A model generated the notes under the pieces. It had not been told where the DNA came from and did no database searches. It worked only from the letters and a program-made list of their open reading frames with translations. DNA of 64,000 bases from NCBI GenBank assembly GCA_027451745.1, contig DAIDIP010000016.1, forward strand, positions 1-64,000, read 5' to 3'. This document shows, piece after piece, positions 7,171-55,914 of the stretch. Source of the DNA: Candidatus Melainabacteria bacterium (GTDB taxonomy: Bacteria > Cyanobacteriota > Vampirovibrionia > Obscuribacterales > Obscuribacteraceae). The first letter of the stretch is position 1. Each line of letters begins with the position of its first letter. The position numbers and the translations under genes were made by a program.

Positions 7171-8241
7171 TCACGCTGAATTTTGCGATTTAGAACAGAC
7201 AGGGGTTCCTTCTACTTTGCGCTTAAGCAATCCGCCTTTTTTCAGGATTTCTATTACTTGCTCAGTGGTCCTATTGGCACGATACCATTTCACAGTCTCA
7301 GATAATCCTTCGCGTAAGGTGTATTTTGGCTTCCAGCCCATCAGTTCTTTAGCTCTAGAATTATCCGCTACACGATTCATAGGACCAGTCGGCATATCAA
7401 GTCGCTTATTAATCTTAGGCTTATAATCAAACATTTCCACTACCATATTTACAGCATCTATTACACGAATACGTTCGGTGGTGCCTAAATTAACTGCGGT
7501 ACCGTCATCTATATACTCTGCCGCTAAAATAGTGCCTTCAACAATATCTTGCACATAAGTCCAGTTGCGAATTTGTTCACCATTCCCCCATACTTCAAAT
7601 GGATCTTGGTGTATAAAGGCCCTGGCTATCATGGCAATAATTGCGTGATCTTCTTTAGCACGCGGACCATATACAGTGAAATATCTACAGCTAGCTGCTT
7701 TCATTCCAAATTCACGATAATAAGATTGAAGCGTAAGCTCTGCCATAAGTTTAGCCCAACCGTACATGTTATCTGCATCATATGGCGGTCCAACTTGCTC
7801 TTCGGTTAAATACATTTCTTTAGCAATGTCGGCTTGAATGTAATTAGGGTAGACACAACCTGAAGAGGCAAATACTACTTTATCCACTTTAGCTTTTGCC
7901 GCTTCCCAAAAAACAATACCATCTAGAAACAAGTTAGATGCAGGACCAGCTTGACATTTTTCAACATAACCACGTCCACCGTGATCGGCTGCCAAATGAA
8001 AAACCAATTCGATATCTCTCATAGCATTTCGACAAATACCGGGCTCGCGAAGATCAGCACTAATCACTTCCAGAGATTCACTTTTCAAATGGGGTAATAA
8101 ATTCTCAGTTATGCCGCTACTCAAATCATCTACTACTCTAACAAGAGCCCCACGGGCTATAAGTGCTTCTACCAAATGAGACCCTATAAACGAGGTGCCC
8201 CCCGTTACTAGAACACGCTTTTGCTCCCAGTTAAAACTCAT
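7171..8241 (-). CDS. NAD-dependent sugar epimerase/dehydratase (copy 1)
   Basis: Extended short-chain dehydrogenase/reductase acting on a nucleotide sugar. The Rossmann dinucleotide motif is TGGTSFIG near the start, the catalytic pair appears as YGWAK, and there is a C-terminal substrate-binding NRVADNSRAKELMGWKP. I chose ATG at 8241 (MSFNW), which has GGGGGGCAC just upstream; an in-frame TTG at 8256 is possible. It is closely similar along its whole length to the next gene (8276-9322), so the pair is a tandem duplication. It probably makes or remodels a sugar for surface polysaccharide together with the nucleotidyltransferase at 9446. The exact reaction (4-epimerase, GDP-mannose 3,5-epimerase-like or dehydratase) cannot be fixed from sequence. 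Confidence 0.85.
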   Translation of the reverse strand: MSFNWEQKRVLVTGGTSFIGSHLVEALIARGALVRVVDDLSSGITENLLPHLKSESLEVISADLREPGICRNAMRDIELVFHLAADHGGRGYVEKCQAGPASNLFLDGIVFWEAAKAKVDKVVFASSGCVYPNYIQADIAKEMYLTEEQVGPPYDADNMYGWAKLMAELTLQSYYREFGMKAASCRYFTVYGPRAKEDHAIIAMIARAFIHQDPFEVWGNGEQIRNWTYVQDIVEGTILAAEYIDDGTAVNLGTTERIRVIDAVNMVVEMFDYKPKINKRLDMPTGPMNRVADNSRAKELMGWKPKYTLREGLSETVKWYRANRTTEQVIEILKKGGLLKRKVEGTPVCSKSQNSA

Positions 8242-8275: not shown

Positions 8276-9322
8276 TCACCTCTGCGTAGCAAGTTCCGCT
8301 TTCCGTGAATTAAGCAAACCTCCACTGGCAAGCATTTTTTTAACTTGCTCAAGATCCTTGTTATCCATGTACCATTCAATAGTAGGTACTAACCCTTGTC
8401 TAAGCGTAAATTTGGGTTCCCATCCAATCAATTTTTTGGCTTTTGAATTATCTGCGATACGATTTACCGGTCCTACCGGCATATTTAGTAATTTAGCAAT
8501 TTTAGGTTTATAGTTAAACATTTCAATAACCATATTTGCTGCATCTATTACACGTAACCGCTCAGTAGTGCCTATATTAACTACTGAACCATCATCAACT
8601 TTTTCTGCGGCCAATATTGTCCCGTCCACTATGTCTTGGACATAAGTCCAATTACGTAATTGTTCGCCATCTCCCCATATCTCGAATGGATCTTGTTTTA
8701 CAAAAGCCTTGGCTATCATGGCCATTATCGACAAGTCTTCCTTAGCACGAGGCCCATACACTATAAAATAGCGACAACAAGCTGCCTTGAATCCTAGATC
8801 ATGACAATAAGCTTTAAGCGTCATTTCACCCATAAGTTTTGCCCAACCGTACATGTTATCTGCATCATAAGGAGGTCCAACTTGATCTTCAGTTAAATAC
8901 ATTTTCTTAGTAACATCAGTTTGTATGTGGTTAGGATAAACACAGCCAGAAGAAGAAAAAACCACTTTATCCACTTTGGCTCGTACCGCTTCCCAAAAAA
9001 CTATTCCATCCAAAAATAAGTTAGAGGCTGGCCCGGCCTGACATAAATCAACATAAGCACGCCCACCATGATCAGCAGCCAAATGAAATACTATTTGCAT
9101 ACCTTTCATGGCTTCTCTAGCCACCCCTGGTTCGCGCAAATCCGCTTTAATTATCTCTACATTCTCTAAATGTGCTTTGAGATTTTCCATTGAGCCCGTA
9201 GTAAAATCATCCACAATTCTAATCTTTGCACCACGAGCTAAAAGTGACTCCACTAAATGTGAACCAATGCAAGATGCACCGCCAGTAACTAGAACCTTTT
9301 TGCCACCCCAGTCAAAACTCAT
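8276..9322 (-). CDS. NAD-dependent sugar epimerase/dehydratase (copy 2)
   Basis: Paralogue of the downstream gene with the same order of motifs: TGGASCIG dinucleotide loop, long shared DNMYGWAKLM segment with the catalytic Tyr and Lys, and C-terminal IGWEPKFTLR. The start at 9322 (MSFDW) has GGAGGG with seven-base spacing; an ATG two codons earlier would be too close to it. It lies 34 bases upstream of copy 1 and belongs to the same minus-strand operon as the nucleotidyltransferase. Two retained copies suggest either consecutive steps or related substrates (inference). It has one notable change in the glycine loop, with Cys in place of the Phe of copy 1. Confidence 0.85.
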   Translation of the reverse strand: MSFDWGGKKVLVTGGASCIGSHLVESLLARGAKIRIVDDFTTGSMENLKAHLENVEIIKADLREPGVAREAMKGMQIVFHLAADHGGRAYVDLCQAGPASNLFLDGIVFWEAVRAKVDKVVFSSSGCVYPNHIQTDVTKKMYLTEDQVGPPYDADNMYGWAKLMGEMTLKAYCHDLGFKAACCRYFIVYGPRAKEDLSIMAMIAKAFVKQDPFEIWGDGEQLRNWTYVQDIVDGTILAAEKVDDGSVVNIGTTERLRVIDAANMVIEMFNYKPKIAKLLNMPVGPVNRIADNSKAKKLIGWEPKFTLRQGLVPTIEWYMDNKDLEQVKKMLASGGLLNSRKAELATQR

Positions 9323-18064: not shown

Positions 18065-18185
18065 GGTTTTATAATAATACAATCGCCCAAACAAATGTGG
18101 ACCAAGCACTGATGAGCAAATTACGATTTTCAACAGAGCCGAAGGAATTGAAGAAAGGGCGCTCATGATGAAAATGCAAACGAAT

Positions 18186-18277
18186 GTTAGAAAAGCGAAA
18201 GGCAGCGAGGAGCCGGCTCTAGCAAGAGCGTGGGCACACGCGTTGAGGCGAGAGACAAGTCCGGAGGAGCGCTTATA
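18186..18277 (+). repeat. Interspersed repeat, copy A
   Basis: Member of a GC-rich intergenic repeat family in this window. It carries the family core CGCGTTGAGGCGAG (about 18240-18253) and the 3' end GGAGCGC (18268-18274). It ends three bases before the btpA start codon, so GGAGGAG inside the repeat (18265-18271) is the likely ribosome-binding site of btpA. Confidence 0.65.
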
Positions 18278-18279
18278 AA

Positions 18280-19092
18280 ATGCTCAAAACATTATTTGGT
18301 ACTGACAAGCCCATTATAGGGGTCATCCATTTACTACCATTGCCCGGATCAGCTCGTTGGGATGGACAAATAGAACCCATTTGTGAGCGTGCTGAACAAG
18401 AAGCCATTGCTCTTACAACTGGGGGCGTGGACGGCATTATTGTTGAAAATTTTTTTGACTCCCCTTTCAAAAAAGACAAGCTCGATCCTATAACTATCAG
18501 CGCCTTTACTCTTGCTGTTAAACGTGTCATGTCTCTAACTAACAAACCTATTGGCATTAATTGTCTTCGCAATGATGGACTATCTGCCTTAGCTATAGCT
18601 GTTGCTACACAAGCACAATTTATTCGTGTGAATGTATTAACAGGCGTTATGGTGACAGATCAGGGTTTGATCGAAGGGATAGCCCACGAACTTTTGCTAT
18701 ATCGACATCATTTAGGAGCAAGCAAATCAGTAAAAATATTCGCTGATGTTTTAGTCAAACATGCATCTCCTTTAGGATTTTCGCCAAATATCAGCCTTGT
18801 TGCACAAGACACAAGAAACCGCGCTTTGGCTGACGCTCTCATAATTAGTGGGCACTCAACGGGCGAAGCGCCTCTTATAGAGGATCTTGAATGTGTCCGC
18901 CAAACTTTGCCCGATTGCCCCCTCTTAGCAGGAAGTGGCGTAGATAAAAACAATATTCAAGACATCCTCAATGTTGCCGATGGCGCCATTGTAGCCAGTT
19001 CTTTAAAAAGACAAGGAAATATAGAAAACCCCATTGATATTGAACGAGCTAGAGAATTGAAAAAAGCCCATCAAACCAAAGTCCATTTATAA
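18280..19092 (+). CDS. btpA: BtpA/SgcQ-family TIM-barrel protein
   Basis: 270 residues, single-domain beta/alpha-barrel. Family features are visible: GVIHLLPLPGS near the N-terminus, GGVDGIIVENFFDSPF at 47-62, IGINCLRNDGLSAL, and the phosphate-loop-like GSGVDKNNI near 222. In cyanobacteria BtpA is needed for stable photosystem I; other relatives (SgcQ) occur in sugar operons, and the biochemical activity is not firmly known. There are no photosystem genes here, so a sugar- or nucleotide-related role is equally likely. ATG at 18280 with GGAGGAG upstream contributed by the repeat. 76 bases separate it from the next gene, which may be transcribed with it. Confidence 0.85.
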   Translation: MLKTLFGTDKPIIGVIHLLPLPGSARWDGQIEPICERAEQEAIALTTGGVDGIIVENFFDSPFKKDKLDPITISAFTLAVKRVMSLTNKPIGINCLRNDGLSALAIAVATQAQFIRVNVLTGVMVTDQGLIEGIAHELLLYRHHLGASKSVKIFADVLVKHASPLGFSPNISLVAQDTRNRALADALIISGHSTGEAPLIEDLECVRQTLPDCPLLAGSGVDKNNIQDILNVADGAIVASSLKRQGNIENPIDIERARELKKAHQTKVHL

Positions 19093-30318: not shown

Positions 30319-31920
30319 ATGATCCAAGAACAATTGTCTAAAAACACTCCTTCTCAACTCACTACTGCCGACACTATAGCCATACTTGACTTTGGCGCCC
30401 AATATTCACAACTCATTGCCAGAAGAGTAAGAGAGCTTGACACTTATTCTGAACTTTTACCTTATAACACAACTGCAAAAAAGCTACGTGAAATGAACGT
30501 AAAAGGGATAATTCTGTCCGGCGGTCCAAACAGTGTGTACGATCCTAACGCGCCACAATTAGATCCTGAAATATGGAAACTTGGCGTGCCAGTTCTTGGC
30601 ATATGTTACGGCATGCAATTAATGGCCCGCGATCTCGAAGGACAAGTTGAACCAGCTCAGGTAAGAGAATACGGCAAAGCCCCTTTGACAATCGTCCATC
30701 ATGGAAAACTATTTGCCAATCTAGAAGCCGTCATCCAAAGCTGGATGAGCCATGGTGACAGCGTTTCTACTTTGCCACCCGGTTTTTGTATCATTGGCAG
30801 CACTACAATAACCCCTGTCGCTGCAATTGCTGACGAAGAGCGCAATTTTTATGGCGTCCAATTCCACCCGGAAGTAGTCCATACTCATGGTGGACAACAC
30901 ATACTTCGTAACTTTGTTGTCGATATTTGCGGTAGCAAACAAAACTGGACAATGAAAGAATTCATTGACGAAGCTATAGCCGAAGTTCGTAAAAAAGCTG
31001 GCGACAAAAGAGTGTTGCTAGCACTTTCTGGCGGCGTGGACAGCTCAACTCTGGCTTTCTTATTACACAAAGCCATAGGCGATAAGCTTACCTGTATGTT
31101 CATCGATCAAGGTTTCATGAGAAAAAATGAGCCTGAATGGTTGGTCGAAACTTTTGAACGCGATTTTAAAATTCATGTTCATTATGTAAAAGCAAGAGAT
31201 CGCTTTATTTCCAAATTAGCAGGTATTACCGATCCAGAACAAAAACGTAAAACTATTGGTGCTGAATTTATAAGAGTGTTCGAAGAAGAGTCAAGAAGAC
31301 TCGGGCCATTTGATTATTTAGCCCAAGGTACTTTGTACCCAGACGTCATAGAATCTGCCGGTACACAAATTGATCCAAAAACCGGTGAAAGAGTGGCTGT
31401 TAAAATCAAATCTCACCATAATGTCGGTGGATTGCCGGACGATTTAAAATTCAAACTCATTGAACCATTTGCTAAATTATTTAAAGACGAAGTCCGCCGT
31501 GTGGCCAGAGAACTTGACGTTCCAGAAGGCATCCGTGAAAGACATCCATTTCCTGGTCCTGGCTTATCCATTCGTGTATTAGGAGAAGTAACCAAAGAAA
31601 GACTAAAGGTATTGCGCGAGGCTGATTGGATCATCCGCGAAGAAATTAAAGCTCATGGCCTTTATAGAAAAATATGGCAAGTATTTGGCGTATTATTACC
31701 AACTAAATCAGTAGGTGTGATGGGCGATCAACGCACCTATCAAAATCAAATTGTCATTCGAGCAGTAACCTCAGAAGACGGTATGACTGCTGATTGGGCC
31801 CGCTTACCATTTGATCTATTAGAGAAAATCTCTTCTCGCATAGTAAATGAAGTTGCTGGCATCAATCGCGTCGTCTACGACATCACCTCCAAACCCCCAG
31901 CCACCATAGAATGGGAGTGA
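30319..31920 (+). CDS. guaA: GMP synthase (glutamine-hydrolysing)
   Basis: 533 residues, full length. The N-terminal class I glutaminase has GICYGMQLM with the catalytic Cys (about residue 96) and the HPE triad (FHPEVVH); the ATP-pyrophosphatase module has LSGGVDSS; the C-terminal dimerisation domain ends in PPATIEWE, as in most GuaA proteins. It converts XMP to GMP. ATG is preceded by GGGGA about ten bases upstream. The gene is monocistronic, and repeat copy B begins directly after the stop codon. Confidence 0.97.
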
Positions 31921-32009
31921 AGCGAAGGACGACCATTTTTCGGCATCCGCAGCGTAACGTAGATACGCGCGTTGAGGCGAGGCACGAAGCCGAAGCAGCG
32001 CCTATAATT
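31921..32009 (+). repeat. Interspersed repeat, copy B
   Basis: Starts directly after the guaA stop codon. It contains ATACGCGCGTTGAGGCGAGG (31963-31982) and the 3' end GCCGAAGCAGCGC, identical to copies E and F in that part. The T-rich TATAATTT at its 3' end leads straight into the tRNA-Gly fragment. Confidence 0.75.
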
Positions 32010-32049
32010 TCCCAAGCTATAAGTTGCGAGTTCGAGACTCCTCACCCGC
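32004..32049 (+). pseudogene. 3' fragment of tRNA-Gly(CCC)
   Basis: From the anticodon loop TTCCCAA (32008-32014... to 32019) through variable region, T-arm GAGTTCGAGACTC and the acceptor half CACCCGC (32043-32049), the bases follow the 3' half of bacterial tRNA-Gly with anticodon CCC in the right order and spacing. The matching 5' acceptor GCGGGTG and the D-arm are missing; the repeat occupies that place. T-stem pairing is partly lost. No CCA is encoded. The pattern suggests a tRNA half left by an integration or recombination event. It is not a functional tRNA. Confidence 0.5.
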
Positions 32050-43614: not shown

Positions 43615-43645
43615 TGGGTGCATAATAGATGAAGGACCAAGAAAT

Positions 43646-43757
43646 GAGATTTAGCAAAACACGGATGGCGAGCAAAGCCTGAACATCCGCTGTGAGACGT
43701 GGATACGCGCGTCGAGCCAAGGATTAAAAAGGCGAGGCAGCGCAAAAACCAAGGAAG
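43646..43757 (+). repeat. Interspersed repeat, copy C
   Basis: Divergent copy in the 256-base gap between tadZ and tadA. It shares the 5' AATGAGAT-TTAGC, GATACGCGCG and the 3' AGGCGAGGCAGCGC with the family. It lies in the same orientation as the pilus genes. Confidence 0.6.
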
Positions 43758-43767
43758 GAATAATAAG

Positions 43768-43862
43768 TGAGACAAGGATGCTGGTGAGGCATCCGCAGGT
43801 GAACGAAGAAGGGTACGCGCGTACGAGCTGAAGGAACTGAAGCGAGGCAGCGCTACAAGAGG
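43768..43862 (+). repeat. Interspersed repeat, copy D
   Basis: Second, adjacent copy before tadA. It has the perfect palindrome GTACGCGCGTAC at 43813-43824 and ends in GAAGCGAGGCAGCGCT. The AAGAGGATA ribosome region of tadA follows directly. Confidence 0.6.
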
Positions 43863-43870
43863 ATAAGCAC

Positions 43871-45508
43871 ATGGGCGACGAGAGAAAAGATCAAAATCTA
43901 CCAGCAAGACCAGCCTCCTCACTGATGGGACAATTGGTGAGACAAAGACAGGGTGCCGATGTTGTTCCTTCGCAAGGACAACAAACCGGGATCGCTGGAC
44001 AACAAGGTTCTACTGGTATGGGAAGTAAAACCGCTGCCCCGCCGCCCGGACAAAGCGGCATGCAACGTCCTGGTGGTCCAGCAACAGGGGTTGCCGGTGG
44101 GAATCGTCCTGGAGCAGCTGTTGAACCAACATCTGGTCCCACACGCGCAGAAATTGAACGCATTGATTCTAAAGAAGATGGTGGCTATGGACATGGTGGT
44201 GCTTCTGAAAATGCTGCTGTAGCTGGGGACCTGGGAGCAAAGTTTTCTGCTAATCAAGGACTTATCCGTGAGCGAGAAAAATTTATTATTGATCAATTGA
44301 GACGTGAGCTTGATACATCTCGTTTAACCAATATATCTGAAGATACTCAAGCTCAAGTAAGAGCTCGTATTCGGGAAATCGTCAACTCTGATCCTGCTCC
44401 TTTGACTATGATGGAAAAGGGTATTCTTTTGCAGAATGTACTTGATGAAGTATTCGGGTTCGGTCCTCTTGGTCCGCTTCTTCGCGATCCAAGCATAGGT
44501 GATATTTGTGTCAATGGTGTAAGCAATATATATGTTGAACGTCATGGGCGCTTAGAAAAAACAGGCGTTGCTTTTGAAAATGAGAAACACTTACGACAAA
44601 CAATAGACAAAATTATTCAACCACTAGGAAGAAGATTGGATGATAACTCGCCAATGGTGGATGCTCGTCTTCCAAACGGTTCACGTGTTAATGCCACAAT
44701 TCCGCCTGTGACTATTGATGGTCCTACCATCACCATCCGATGTTTCGGTGCTAATGCTATGTCGCTTGGTCAATTGGTCGAAAAAGGCGCCATGTCAGTG
44801 CAAATGGCTGAGGTGCTCAAATCATGTGTTAAAGGACGTATTAATTTAATTATTTCTGGAGGTACAGGTTCTGGCAAAACCACTTTGCTCAACGCCTTAT
44901 CTTCACACATAAATCCAAGAGAAAGAATTATCACTATCGAAGACGCGGCTGAATTACGCTTGCAACACGATCACTGGGTACGCATGGAAACAAGGCCTGC
45001 CAATACTGAAGGGAAGGGACAAATTACACAGCGTATGCTTGTTATCAACACACTTCGTATGCGACCAGACCGAATCATCATGGGGGAATGCCGTGGTGAA
45101 GAAGCATTTGATATGTTACAGGCCATGAATACAGGTCACTCAGGTTCAATGACCACAATTCACGCCAACTCTCCTCGTGACTGTACAAAACGTCTTGAGA
45201 ATATGATTTTGATGGGTGGTCTGGATATGCCAGCCAAAGCAGCACGCGAGTTAATCGCTTCAGCTATTCAAGTCATTGTACAAATCAAACGTCTAGAAGA
45301 CGGAACAAGAAGAGTTACCGAAGTATCTGAAATAACTGGGATGGAAGGAGAAACAATAGCAATTAGTACGCTATTCCATTTAGAAAGAGAGGGACGCGAC
45401 GCCCGTGGATTTTTCAAATGTCGTCACGTTGGCTCCGGCTTACCGCCTAAGTTTCTTGAGCAATTAGAACAAGAATCTATACCATTCAAACTCGAATGGT
45501 TGAGGTAA
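43871..45508 (+). CDS. tadA: Flp pilus assembly ATPase TadA/CpaF
   Basis: 545 residues. After a Gly/Gln/Pro-rich disordered N-terminus of about 125 residues, longer than usual, come the secretion-ATPase domains: [19 protein letters not shown], Walker [13 protein letters not shown], the Asp and His boxes ([23 protein letters not shown]) and [14 protein letters not shown]. It drives assembly of Flp pilin from the inner membrane. ATG 43871 has AAGAGG about eight bases upstream. Part of one operon with tadB and tadC. Confidence 0.95.
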
Positions 45509-54294: not shown

Positions 54295-55332
54295 TTGTAC
54301 GATTTTTTGCTTATTTTGATTCTCGCCGCTCTGGGTTTATTGGCTCATGTTGCCAAAACCAGACGTTGGTTAGAATGGATTTTAAGATCAGTTATCGTCC
54401 TTATTGCCCTTTTAGAAGGGCTTTCAGTATTTAGCACTAGCGCTGAACTGCTCATGAATCCATGGACTAATGCCGTCCTTACTTGGACAATGGTGACCAC
54501 GCTAGCCTCACTACTTATGCCTGTAAGAAAAGTATTTTCTTTGCTTTTTAGTGGCATAGACTTGTTGTTCAGCGGTCAGCTTTTTGTCCCTCTAATCAAA
54601 AAGAACATTAGAGTTATTGAACATTTCCAGCAATACAAAGTCTTTGTCCCCTCGTCTATTCCACATCTTATAGCTCTATTCATTTATATCAGTACAATTG
54701 CCTATCTACTTTTATGTATCGATCTAGAAGCTTTCAAAATGCCCTATATGCCGCTACCTATTCCACTTGTGCTTGGACAACTACTCTCATATAACGGTAT
54801 AGGATTGATAATTCTTTCTTTCTGTGGTGTAGGCATATTCATAAGCCGTCCATTTAAAATTGCTTCCCAACGTCTGGCTTTAGTCAAGCCAAGTAAAAAA
54901 CAAATTGGTATAGGGCTACTGCTCATAGCAGGCAGTTTCTTATATGACTATCTTTGGTCTTTATACACCCATGGCTTGCCTGATCAAGATCTAGCCACCA
55001 AACTCTCTTACTATAATTCAGGTACTTTTGCTGTCGCTGGTGGCTTCACACCATCTGTGATTTTAGCGCTGGCAACAGCTTTGTGCGCAGGCATTGGCGA
55101 AGAAACATTAATTAGAGGAGCCCTCCAGCCGGCATTTGGTATTGTGCCAGCCGCAGTATTGCATGGTATGCTGCATGGACAATTTGCTCATGCACCAATT
55201 TTTATAATACAAGTAGCTCTTTGGTCCACATTCATGGGCATAGTCAAACGCTATACTAATACCACTACAACAATTATTGGACACGCTGGGTTCAATTTCG
55301 TCAGCACATTTTTGTTCGCGTTCAATCCTTAA
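54295..55332 (+). CDS. CPBP-family intramembrane metalloprotease
   Basis: 345 residues, about eight membrane helices. The CPBP (Abi/Rce1) active-site motifs are near the C-terminus: EETLIRGALQPAFG with two Glu and an Arg, HGMLHGQF with the catalytic histidines, and HAGFNFVSTF at the end. TTG start with AGGAAG six bases upstream. Members cleave membrane substrates, such as prenylated proteins or bacteriocin-related peptides; the substrate here is unknown. The end of the gene (AATCCTTAA) is duplicated in the repeat that follows. Confidence 0.85.
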   Translation: MYDFLLILILAALGLLAHVAKTRRWLEWILRSVIVLIALLEGLSVFSTSAELLMNPWTNAVLTWTMVTTLASLLMPVRKVFSLLFSGIDLLFSGQLFVPLIKKNIRVIEHFQQYKVFVPSSIPHLIALFIYISTIAYLLLCIDLEAFKMPYMPLPIPLVLGQLLSYNGIGLIILSFCGVGIFISRPFKIASQRLALVKPSKKQIGIGLLLIAGSFLYDYLWSLYTHGLPDQDLATKLSYYNSGTFAVAGGFTPSVILALATALCAGIGEETLIRGALQPAFGIVPAAVLHGMLHGQFAHAPIFIIQVALWSTFMGIVKRYTNTTTTIIGHAGFNFVSTFLFAFNP

Positions 55333-55333
55333 A

Positions 55334-55434
55334 TTAGCGCTGCTTCGGCTCGGTCCCCTCGCCTCATACGCGCGTATCTACGCTTCACTTCGCATGCCTC
55401 GCATTTTTCGGCACGCTCGTTACGCTATATCTCA
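55334..55434 (-). repeat. Interspersed repeat, copy E
   Basis: Reads 5'-to-3' on the minus strand: AATGAGATATAGC start, palindrome ATACGCGCGTAT (55366-55377) and GCCGAAGCAGCGC end. 45 bases beginning in the last codons of the CPBP gene (55324-55368) recur at 55439-55483 with one mismatch, making a direct duplication with copy F. Confidence 0.75.
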
Positions 55435-55439
55435 TTTTA

Positions 55440-55524
55440 ATCCTTAAATTAGCGCTGCTTCGGCTCGGTCCCCTCACCTCATAAGCGCGCGCTTTACGGC
55501 ATTTCGCTTCCGCCGCTTCACCAT
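55440..55524 (-). repeat. Interspersed repeat, copy F
   Basis: Second copy in the same minus orientation, 115 bases from copy E, sharing the GAGCCGAAGCAGCGCTAATTT end. The 5' part is more divergent. It ends close to the mazF-like stop codon, so both E and F lie downstream of that gene in its transcription direction. Confidence 0.7.
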
Positions 55525-55548
55525 CAATGATTTTACTCTTTTGAAAAG

Positions 55549-55914
55549 CTATTTCAATGACAGCACTAACTTAAGCGCCAGATCAATTTCTTCCAGCTTG
55601 CTAGCTGACACAACTCCTGCGCACTTGATTTTACCTGTTTTGGGATCTGCAAATCTTTTTTGGTCCAAAGATCGCAATTGAAAACAAAGAAATACAGTAT
55701 CTTTTGGCAGTCCGCTTTCTTTCGCCTTGACCAAGACATTGGTTGGATACGAGCGAGTAATATTAGCAGCATCTGTGCCTACTACAACGCTTATCACCAA
55801 AGGCAATGAGTTAATAACATCATCTGAAACAATTAAAACAGGACGCTTTCCCGCTTGTTCTCGCCCTTGTACTGGATCAAGAGAGACAAAATATATTTCT
55901 CCACGTTTGATCAT
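55549..55914 (-). CDS. MazF/PemK-type endoribonuclease toxin
   Basis: 121 residues. It has the PemK/MazF fold pattern: KRGEIYFVSLDPVQGREQAGKRPVLIVSDD at the N-terminus, then VVVGT and a late KTDAANITRS-like loop; the GREQAGKRPVLIV segment carries the RPVLI family motif. The protein should cut single-stranded mRNA at specific short sequences. It starts within the antitoxin stop (ATGA), so it is translationally coupled. The three interspersed-repeat features E and F lie just downstream. Confidence 0.85.
   Translation of the reverse strand: MIKRGEIYFVSLDPVQGREQAGKRPVLIVSDDVINSLPLVISVVVGTDAANITRSYPTNVLVKAKESGLPKDTVFLCFQLRSLDQKRFADPKTGKIKCAGVVSASKLEEIDLALKLVLSLK

Follow-up and report, generated by a model that had tools for sequence, protein, structure and literature searches.

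A dispersed structured repeat as the probable source of the btpA Shine-Dalgarno sequence in a Candidatus Melainabacteria genome

Copy A and the start of btpA

The start codon of btpA adjoins one copy (copy A) of a dispersed repeat, which raises the question of whether the repeat provides the ribosome-binding site of the gene and whether other copies do the same for their neighbours. The window (the whole stretch of DNA analysed, 64,000 nt) represents contig C16 of a 3.0-Mb genome in 76 contigs. The congener used for comparison is one genome, G001, which is 71% complete. Repeat copies were found with two models. R1 is a sequence-only model from 11 copies, copy A included; R2 is a covariance model that was built, together with alignment A3, on 51 of 68 listed stretches, with copies A and B among the 17 excluded. 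The features at btpA are as follows.

18170..18279, + strand: repeat copy A, extending right up to the btpA ATG (R2 match 18175-18278; 86% identity to the copy on contig C24)
18238..18272, + strand: copy A, right arm, with A.C in place of G-C as its outermost pair (alignment, pair counts)
18263..18269, + strand: GGAGGAG, probable btpA Shine-Dalgarno (SD) sequence (sequence; GGAG unpaired probability 0.84)
18280..19092, + strand: btpA (Pfam BtpA, E 1.7e-90; start as in the congener)

The btpA reading frame is genuine, and its start codon agrees with the congener start, MLKNLFGTDKP. In the databases, BtpA has its best relatives in records under the labels Candidatus Obscuribacterales or Melainabacteria, apart from a few labelled otherwise, and this genome is a member of the Candidatus Obscuribacterales group. 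The gene order hdac-btpA-WG protein is common to this genome and the congener, and copy A is placed here in the divergent spacer between hdac and btpA. The repeat proposed by an earlier, sequence-only reading is real: R2 recovers copy A, which was absent from its training set, at 58.6 bits (E 9.0e-12), and the copy on contig C24 is 86% identical to it over 110 nt. C24, which belongs to the training set, scores 98.5 bits with the same model. The differences between the two copies are denser in one block, picked after looking (6/21 vs. 9/90, p 0.036). Copy A also contains a 34-codon ORF (18174-18278), the TAA of which ends one base before the btpA ATG.

According to the sequence-only reading, GGAGGAG occupied 18265-18271 in a repeat that stopped three bases short of the start, leaving about eight bases between motif and ATG. 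The motif is present in the repeat, but at 18263-18269; it is followed by CGCTTATAAA and then by the ATG at 18280, so that 10 bases separate motif and start codon, and the repeat match ends at 18278, one base before the ATG. The 3′ GCGC of copy A is situated 7 nt before the ATG. The pairing of the btpA SD to the anti-SD (16S tail GGATCACCTCCTTTCT) was calculated as −9.5 kcal/mol, second among the 46 scored window genes of at least 200 aa; stretches 60-45 nt upstream average −1.5. GGAGGAG is the only SD in range of the btpA start. An SD 4-mer was found in just 20 of the 46 window genes, and btpA may therefore not need one. The GGAG of copy A is predicted to be largely unpaired. The interpretation of copy A as an ordinary stable hairpin was dropped, as its minimum free energy is no better than that of shuffles (z 0.09). 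The TATAAA just before the btpA ATG was likewise rejected as a −10 box, since transcription would begin within the gene.

In the congener, there is no repeat in the btpA leader, whose SD score is 0.3 kcal/mol; its AAGGA is too far upstream, and no SD was found in range. None of the 24 relatives with loci carries the element at btpA. Thirteen of them have an SD 4-mer at −20 to −5 of the gene, the best scoring −7.8, weaker than that of copy A; the leaders are unrelated and not conserved, and none of these 4-mers sits in a conserved leader, which would have spoken against the repeat as the source of the btpA SD. With the only SD in range lying in the repeat, and the repeat missing from the congener and the 24 relatives, we consider it likely, as the sequence-only reading had put forward, that the GGAGGAG of copy A supplies the Shine-Dalgarno sequence of btpA.

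Structure and distribution of the repeat

The repeat is a two-armed structured element of about 105 nt with strong covariation. Both arms are hairpins, and the internal loops are purine-rich and of GNA/GNA type. In the left arm short helices alternate with GNA/GNA-like loops, and in the right arm GCGC...GCGC encloses an inner GCC/GGC helix. Prior to the first covariation count, 20 of 78 dereplicated copies were excluded by hand as partial or odd. In alignment A3 (51 copies), paired cells make up 88.4%. Two-sided changes occur in 15 of the 18 pairs and in 107 cells, the shuffled mean for the latter being 34.9; none of 500 shuffles reached the observed values, and slid controls were far lower. 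Alignment A4, comprising 54 copies from other genera, gave 96.4% paired cells and 175 cells changed on both sides (45.3 in shuffles), values that lean towards the model to which A4 was fitted; for one of five measures, 5/500 shuffles reached the observed value. Among mispairs on the strand shown, G.U exceeds A.C (31 vs. 20 in A3, two pairs omitted; 44 vs. 4 in A4), which gives weak support to folding of the element on this strand.

R1 produced 60 matches in this genome and 106 in the congener (E up to 1), and R2 61 and at least 80, respectively, with up to 80 candidates scored in each genome. Among 50 family genomes, the present one and the congener included, R2 matched in 23, representing 14 of 24 genera, and had no match in 27 (E 0.001, stricter filters). 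The copies from these two genomes come mostly from R1-listed matches, and those from other genera are high-scoring only (54 matches in 45 loci). The family is an old, dispersed and structured one in Candidatus Obscuribacterales. No Rfam 15 family matched at the gathering score (0 matches in the window), and an Rfam search with E up to 5 at five element-bearing loci returned, above the cut-off, just tRNAs beside the element. Some copies neighbour tRNA genes: by eye, the copy at locus L006 is followed by a tRNA-like sequence, and the copy at L264 has an Rfam tRNA on either side. A literature search, with most subscription journals outside its range, found no published description of the element. 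The remaining copies in the window and the features next to them are listed below.

31902..32007, + strand: repeat copy B, after guaA (R2; three-unit array at this site in the congener)
43639..43749, + strand: repeat, first of two before the TadA-like gene (R2)
43752..43859, + strand: repeat copy D, the nearer of the two to the TadA-like gene (R2)
43857..43862, + strand: AAGAGG, SD of the TadA-like gene, beyond the 3′ GCGC of the repeat
43871..45508, + strand: TadA-like ATPase gene (best NCBIfam TIGR03819, 342.8 bits, below the cut-off of 373.15)
55331..55440, − strand: repeat copy between convergent genes (R2)
55446..55556, − strand: repeat copy in tandem with the preceding one (R2)

Directly after copy B, positions 32010-32049 resemble the 3′ half of a tRNA, ending GTTCGAGACTCCTCACCCGC; across the window, ARAGORN predicts no complete tRNA. 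Two neighbouring minus-strand ORFs, probably related genes, share a 300-nt direct repeat at 72% identity (7283-7582 and 8370-8669). The congener has many loci with tandem arrays of two to five near-identical units of about 110 nt, the sequence of which differs between loci, a pattern that suggests local duplication. Examples with three to five units each are L193 (1591-2027), L198 (972-1528) and L200 (1000-1443).

Signs of mobility were sought in several ways. No inverted-repeat pair is present in the window (seed 12, length at least 40). A fixed TTA target duplication was discarded, as no constant TTA was seen on the left flank in 44 and 96 single copies. Mobilisation by a RAYT, as in the REP/REPIN class (20-40 bp palindromes with a GTAG or CGTC tag at one end), was also dropped: at E 0.001 no Y1 transposase (PF01797) was found in either this genome or the 71% complete congener, the control being positive in 5 of 14 known genomes.

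Position of the element and leaders of other genes

For the family as a whole, 144 of 193 distinct copies were counted, being single or last in an array; 47 array-internal copies and two at contig ends were set aside, a partial cinA copy is outside these counts and starts were called by ORF length alone. To the right of the element, 90 copies have a co-oriented start, 47 have an opposing ORF that ends there and seven have no callable neighbour; the bias towards the orientation of the next gene is significant (90 vs. 47, p 3e-4). The 3′ GCGC is followed within 0-40 nt by 63 starts, 25 of them at 6-8 nt (p 6e-13 against a uniform null), distributed as 9/19 in this genome, 6/25 in the congener and 10/19 in other genera. 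Each of these 25 copies has an SD-like 4-mer among the final ten bases of its element, GGAG in 18 and GAGG in seven; in the seven with GAGG only, it is about 13 nt from the start. A separate SD 4-mer between element and start occurs in 18 of 25 cases with the start at 14-30 nt vs. none of 25 at 6-8 nt, a difference that is partly geometric, there being no room at 6-8 nt.

Copies before genes fall into two arrangements. Some lie 14-30 nt upstream, and most of these leave a separate SD between element and start; others lie 6-8 nt upstream, and their own GGAG or GAGG is the sole SD-like sequence. Copy D exemplifies a gene whose SD is separate from the element. The sequence-only reading was right that AAGAGG adjoins this repeat; the motif begins three bases past the 3′ GCGC, beside the structured core and outside it, so the SD of the TadA-like gene is not supplied by copy D. 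The orthologous gene of the congener also has repeat units upstream, with a different SD-like sequence, AAGGAT.

A selfish or neutral intergenic repeat, surviving wherever no gene is broken, would also be expected to end near gene borders; the GGAGGAG of copy A would then be incidental, and btpA would start without an SD. Such an explanation accommodates the copies between convergent genes and in tandem arrays, as well as the opposing gene ends that come next in 47 of 144 copies (e.g., at L140, L138 and L142), ten of these ends having their stop codon precisely on the 3′ GCGC. GGAG was found in 45/45 sampled copies from other genera, with a nearby start or without one, and must be foremost structural there; the congener btpA, too, has no SD in range. 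We nevertheless regard this explanation as unlikely, because the clustering of start distances at 6-8 nt is seen in each of three separate sets and because GGAG is enriched before starts both in this genome (5/9 copies with a start at 6-10 nt vs. 4/36 otherwise, p 0.009) and in the congener (6/9 vs. 10/45, p 0.014). It also leaves aside that copy A is the sole copy of its subtype with GGA: in 65 copies with a GUU-type right arm, the SD place reads GCA in 61, other letters in three and GGA in copy A.

An ATG at exactly +7 is seen in 17/144 single copies and 0/47 array-internal ones (p 0.014); for +6 to +8 the counts are 27/144 and 4/47, which is not significant (p 0.11). Where the element faces an opposing gene, its TTA reads TAA on the other strand and appears to provide the stop of that gene. 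Taken as position and sequence together, the wider pattern is well supported, as a pattern of sequence rather than of function.

Comparison with relatives provides pairs of leaders with and without the element. The ClpC-like gene (our own name, NCBIfam Clp-family matches staying below their cut-offs) is 97% identical to that of the congener over 499 aa. After a motif ending CACATTA, the leader measures 20 nt with GGGGA in the congener, 27 nt with GGGAGG in genome G018 and 40 nt with CGGAGG in genome G008. In the present genome, repeat sequence occupies the 156 nt after the same motif, its end reading GACGGAGCGATTATACA-ATG, and this repeat-derived leader runs into the start as GGAGCGATTATACA-ATG. 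Here the element fills the whole of the leader that bears the SD-like sequence in the three relatives. As at btpA, the only SD of the gene is inside the repeat and at working distance, which is the pattern of an exapted, repeat-borne ribosome-binding site. A motif upstream of the ClpC-like gene, perhaps a promoter, reads GATGTTAGAAT...ATCACATTA, with GGTGTTAGAAT in the congener; its conservation extends over four genomes from three genera (L312, L313, L314 and L316).

The rpmD genes of the two genomes are 71% identical, and in this case the element is in the congener. The gene of the present genome has a 28-nt spacer with AAAAGG 11 nt from the ATG. In the congener, the leader AAAGAGG is 118 nt from the ATG and the element is located between them; ending GACGGAGCGTTTATTGAA, it adjoins the ATG and carries GGAG. 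TTTATT is found on both sides of the element at this locus (by eye). The der gene has an element in this genome, but the pair says little, as the congener, which lacks the element there, has a 12-nt spacer with no evident SD. No sufD orthologue was found in the 71% complete congener. The ClpC-like gene, rpmD and the copies at 6-8 nt suggest that, as supposed in the sequence-only reading, the repeat may provide ribosome-binding sites to genes other than btpA.

Origin of the btpA leader and its wider meaning

Several known repeats resemble this element in part. The TAACTGA heptamer repeats of marine Beggiatoaceae, the nearest idea found in the literature, are described as dispersed and intergenic. 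Most of them stand at most several nucleotides ahead of a start codon, the genes behind them have unrelated functions, and translational regulation was suggested for them (PMC4679880). They share with the present element its dispersal and its position near the starts of unrelated genes, but they are 7-nt direct repeats at the SD place with little SD character, whereas here an element of about 105 nt is structured and contains an SD-like GGAG (PMC4679880). ERIC/IRU is likewise a small structured intergenic repeat, with a reported orientation-dependent effect on the neighbouring transcript; that effect concerns mRNA stability via an RNase E site, the relevant passages mention no supply of a ribosome-binding site and the sequences were compared through Rfam only (PMC2229807). 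The small interspersed BOX and RUP repeats of Streptococcus pneumoniae are comparable as well. BOX elements can add start codons or ORFs, but the ORFs so formed are described as being without good SD candidates, whereas here the starts are those of known genes and the SD is in the repeat (PMC3049150). Prokaryotic MITEs, too, are short, noncoding, multi-copy and intergenic. They may differ in their ends, as the copies here gave no clear sign of a target duplication and no inverted-repeat pair of 40 nt or more was seen in the window; the MITE review contains none of the terms ribosome, start codon, Shine or RBS (PMC10969869). SDs borne by a repeat for neighbouring genes are not described in the ERIC, MITE and BOX passages.

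For btpA we propose that a copy of the repeat arrived, or was already present, before the gene. This copy has the GUU-type right arm, in which the SD place normally reads GCA. Changes at the SD place and loss of the outermost pair, where A has replaced G to give A.C, would have produced a strong and mostly unpaired SD; the strand next to the ATG would thereby have become GGAGGAG and come to serve as the btpA Shine-Dalgarno. The view of GGAGGAG as plain family sequence was abandoned, since it departs from the GUU/GCA subtype, and for the same reason the btpA ribosome-binding site would be an exaptation of a repeat copy, not the original role of the repeat. As the only GGA among 65 copies of its subtype, the SD of copy A probably arose after the arrival of the copy. 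Repeat first and SD later is the simplest reading of the order of events. Computation gives the structure, the positions and the comparisons with and without the element; ribosome use of element-borne SDs is inferred, and for btpA it is likely.

A broader claim would be that the element is a lineage-wide portable translation-initiation leader, copies of which replace the host 5′ leader when they reach a start codon, the ClpC-like gene being the example; this we hold to be distinctly unlikely. A dedicated cis-regulatory leader, thermometer-like or protein-bound, whose arms control SD access in downstream genes, is very improbable. It would fit the covarying structure, the SD within the right arm and the orientation bias towards the next gene, but one copy in three is directed at an opposing gene, near-identical units are found in arrays, the downstream genes have no evident common function and the fold of copy A is no better than shuffles. 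An all-against-all BLAST of 73 downstream proteins revealed four related pairs, two of them close pairs of this genome and the congener, and the idea of a kept regulator of one gene set was dropped on this ground. Initiation of btpA by coupling to the 34-codon ORF of copy A is scarcely credible, for although that ORF is open and ends TTA-TAA at 18278, one base before the ATG, its frame is lost through a one-base indel in the nearest copy, C24.

If the portable leader were nevertheless true, der, hemW, sufD, glmS, cinA and btpA would share one folded, SD-bearing leader, and a single factor or condition could control these genes together. Apart from this, the element constitutes a covarying structured family that Rfam does not match, in a lineage of cyanobacterial relatives most of which are uncultured. 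Exaptation of a repeat copy, the reading preferred for btpA, has natural pairs with and without the element between this genome and its congener at the ClpC-like gene, rpmD, btpA and, less clearly, der, and in these pairs a dispersed repeat appears to have replaced the ribosome-binding site of a core gene.
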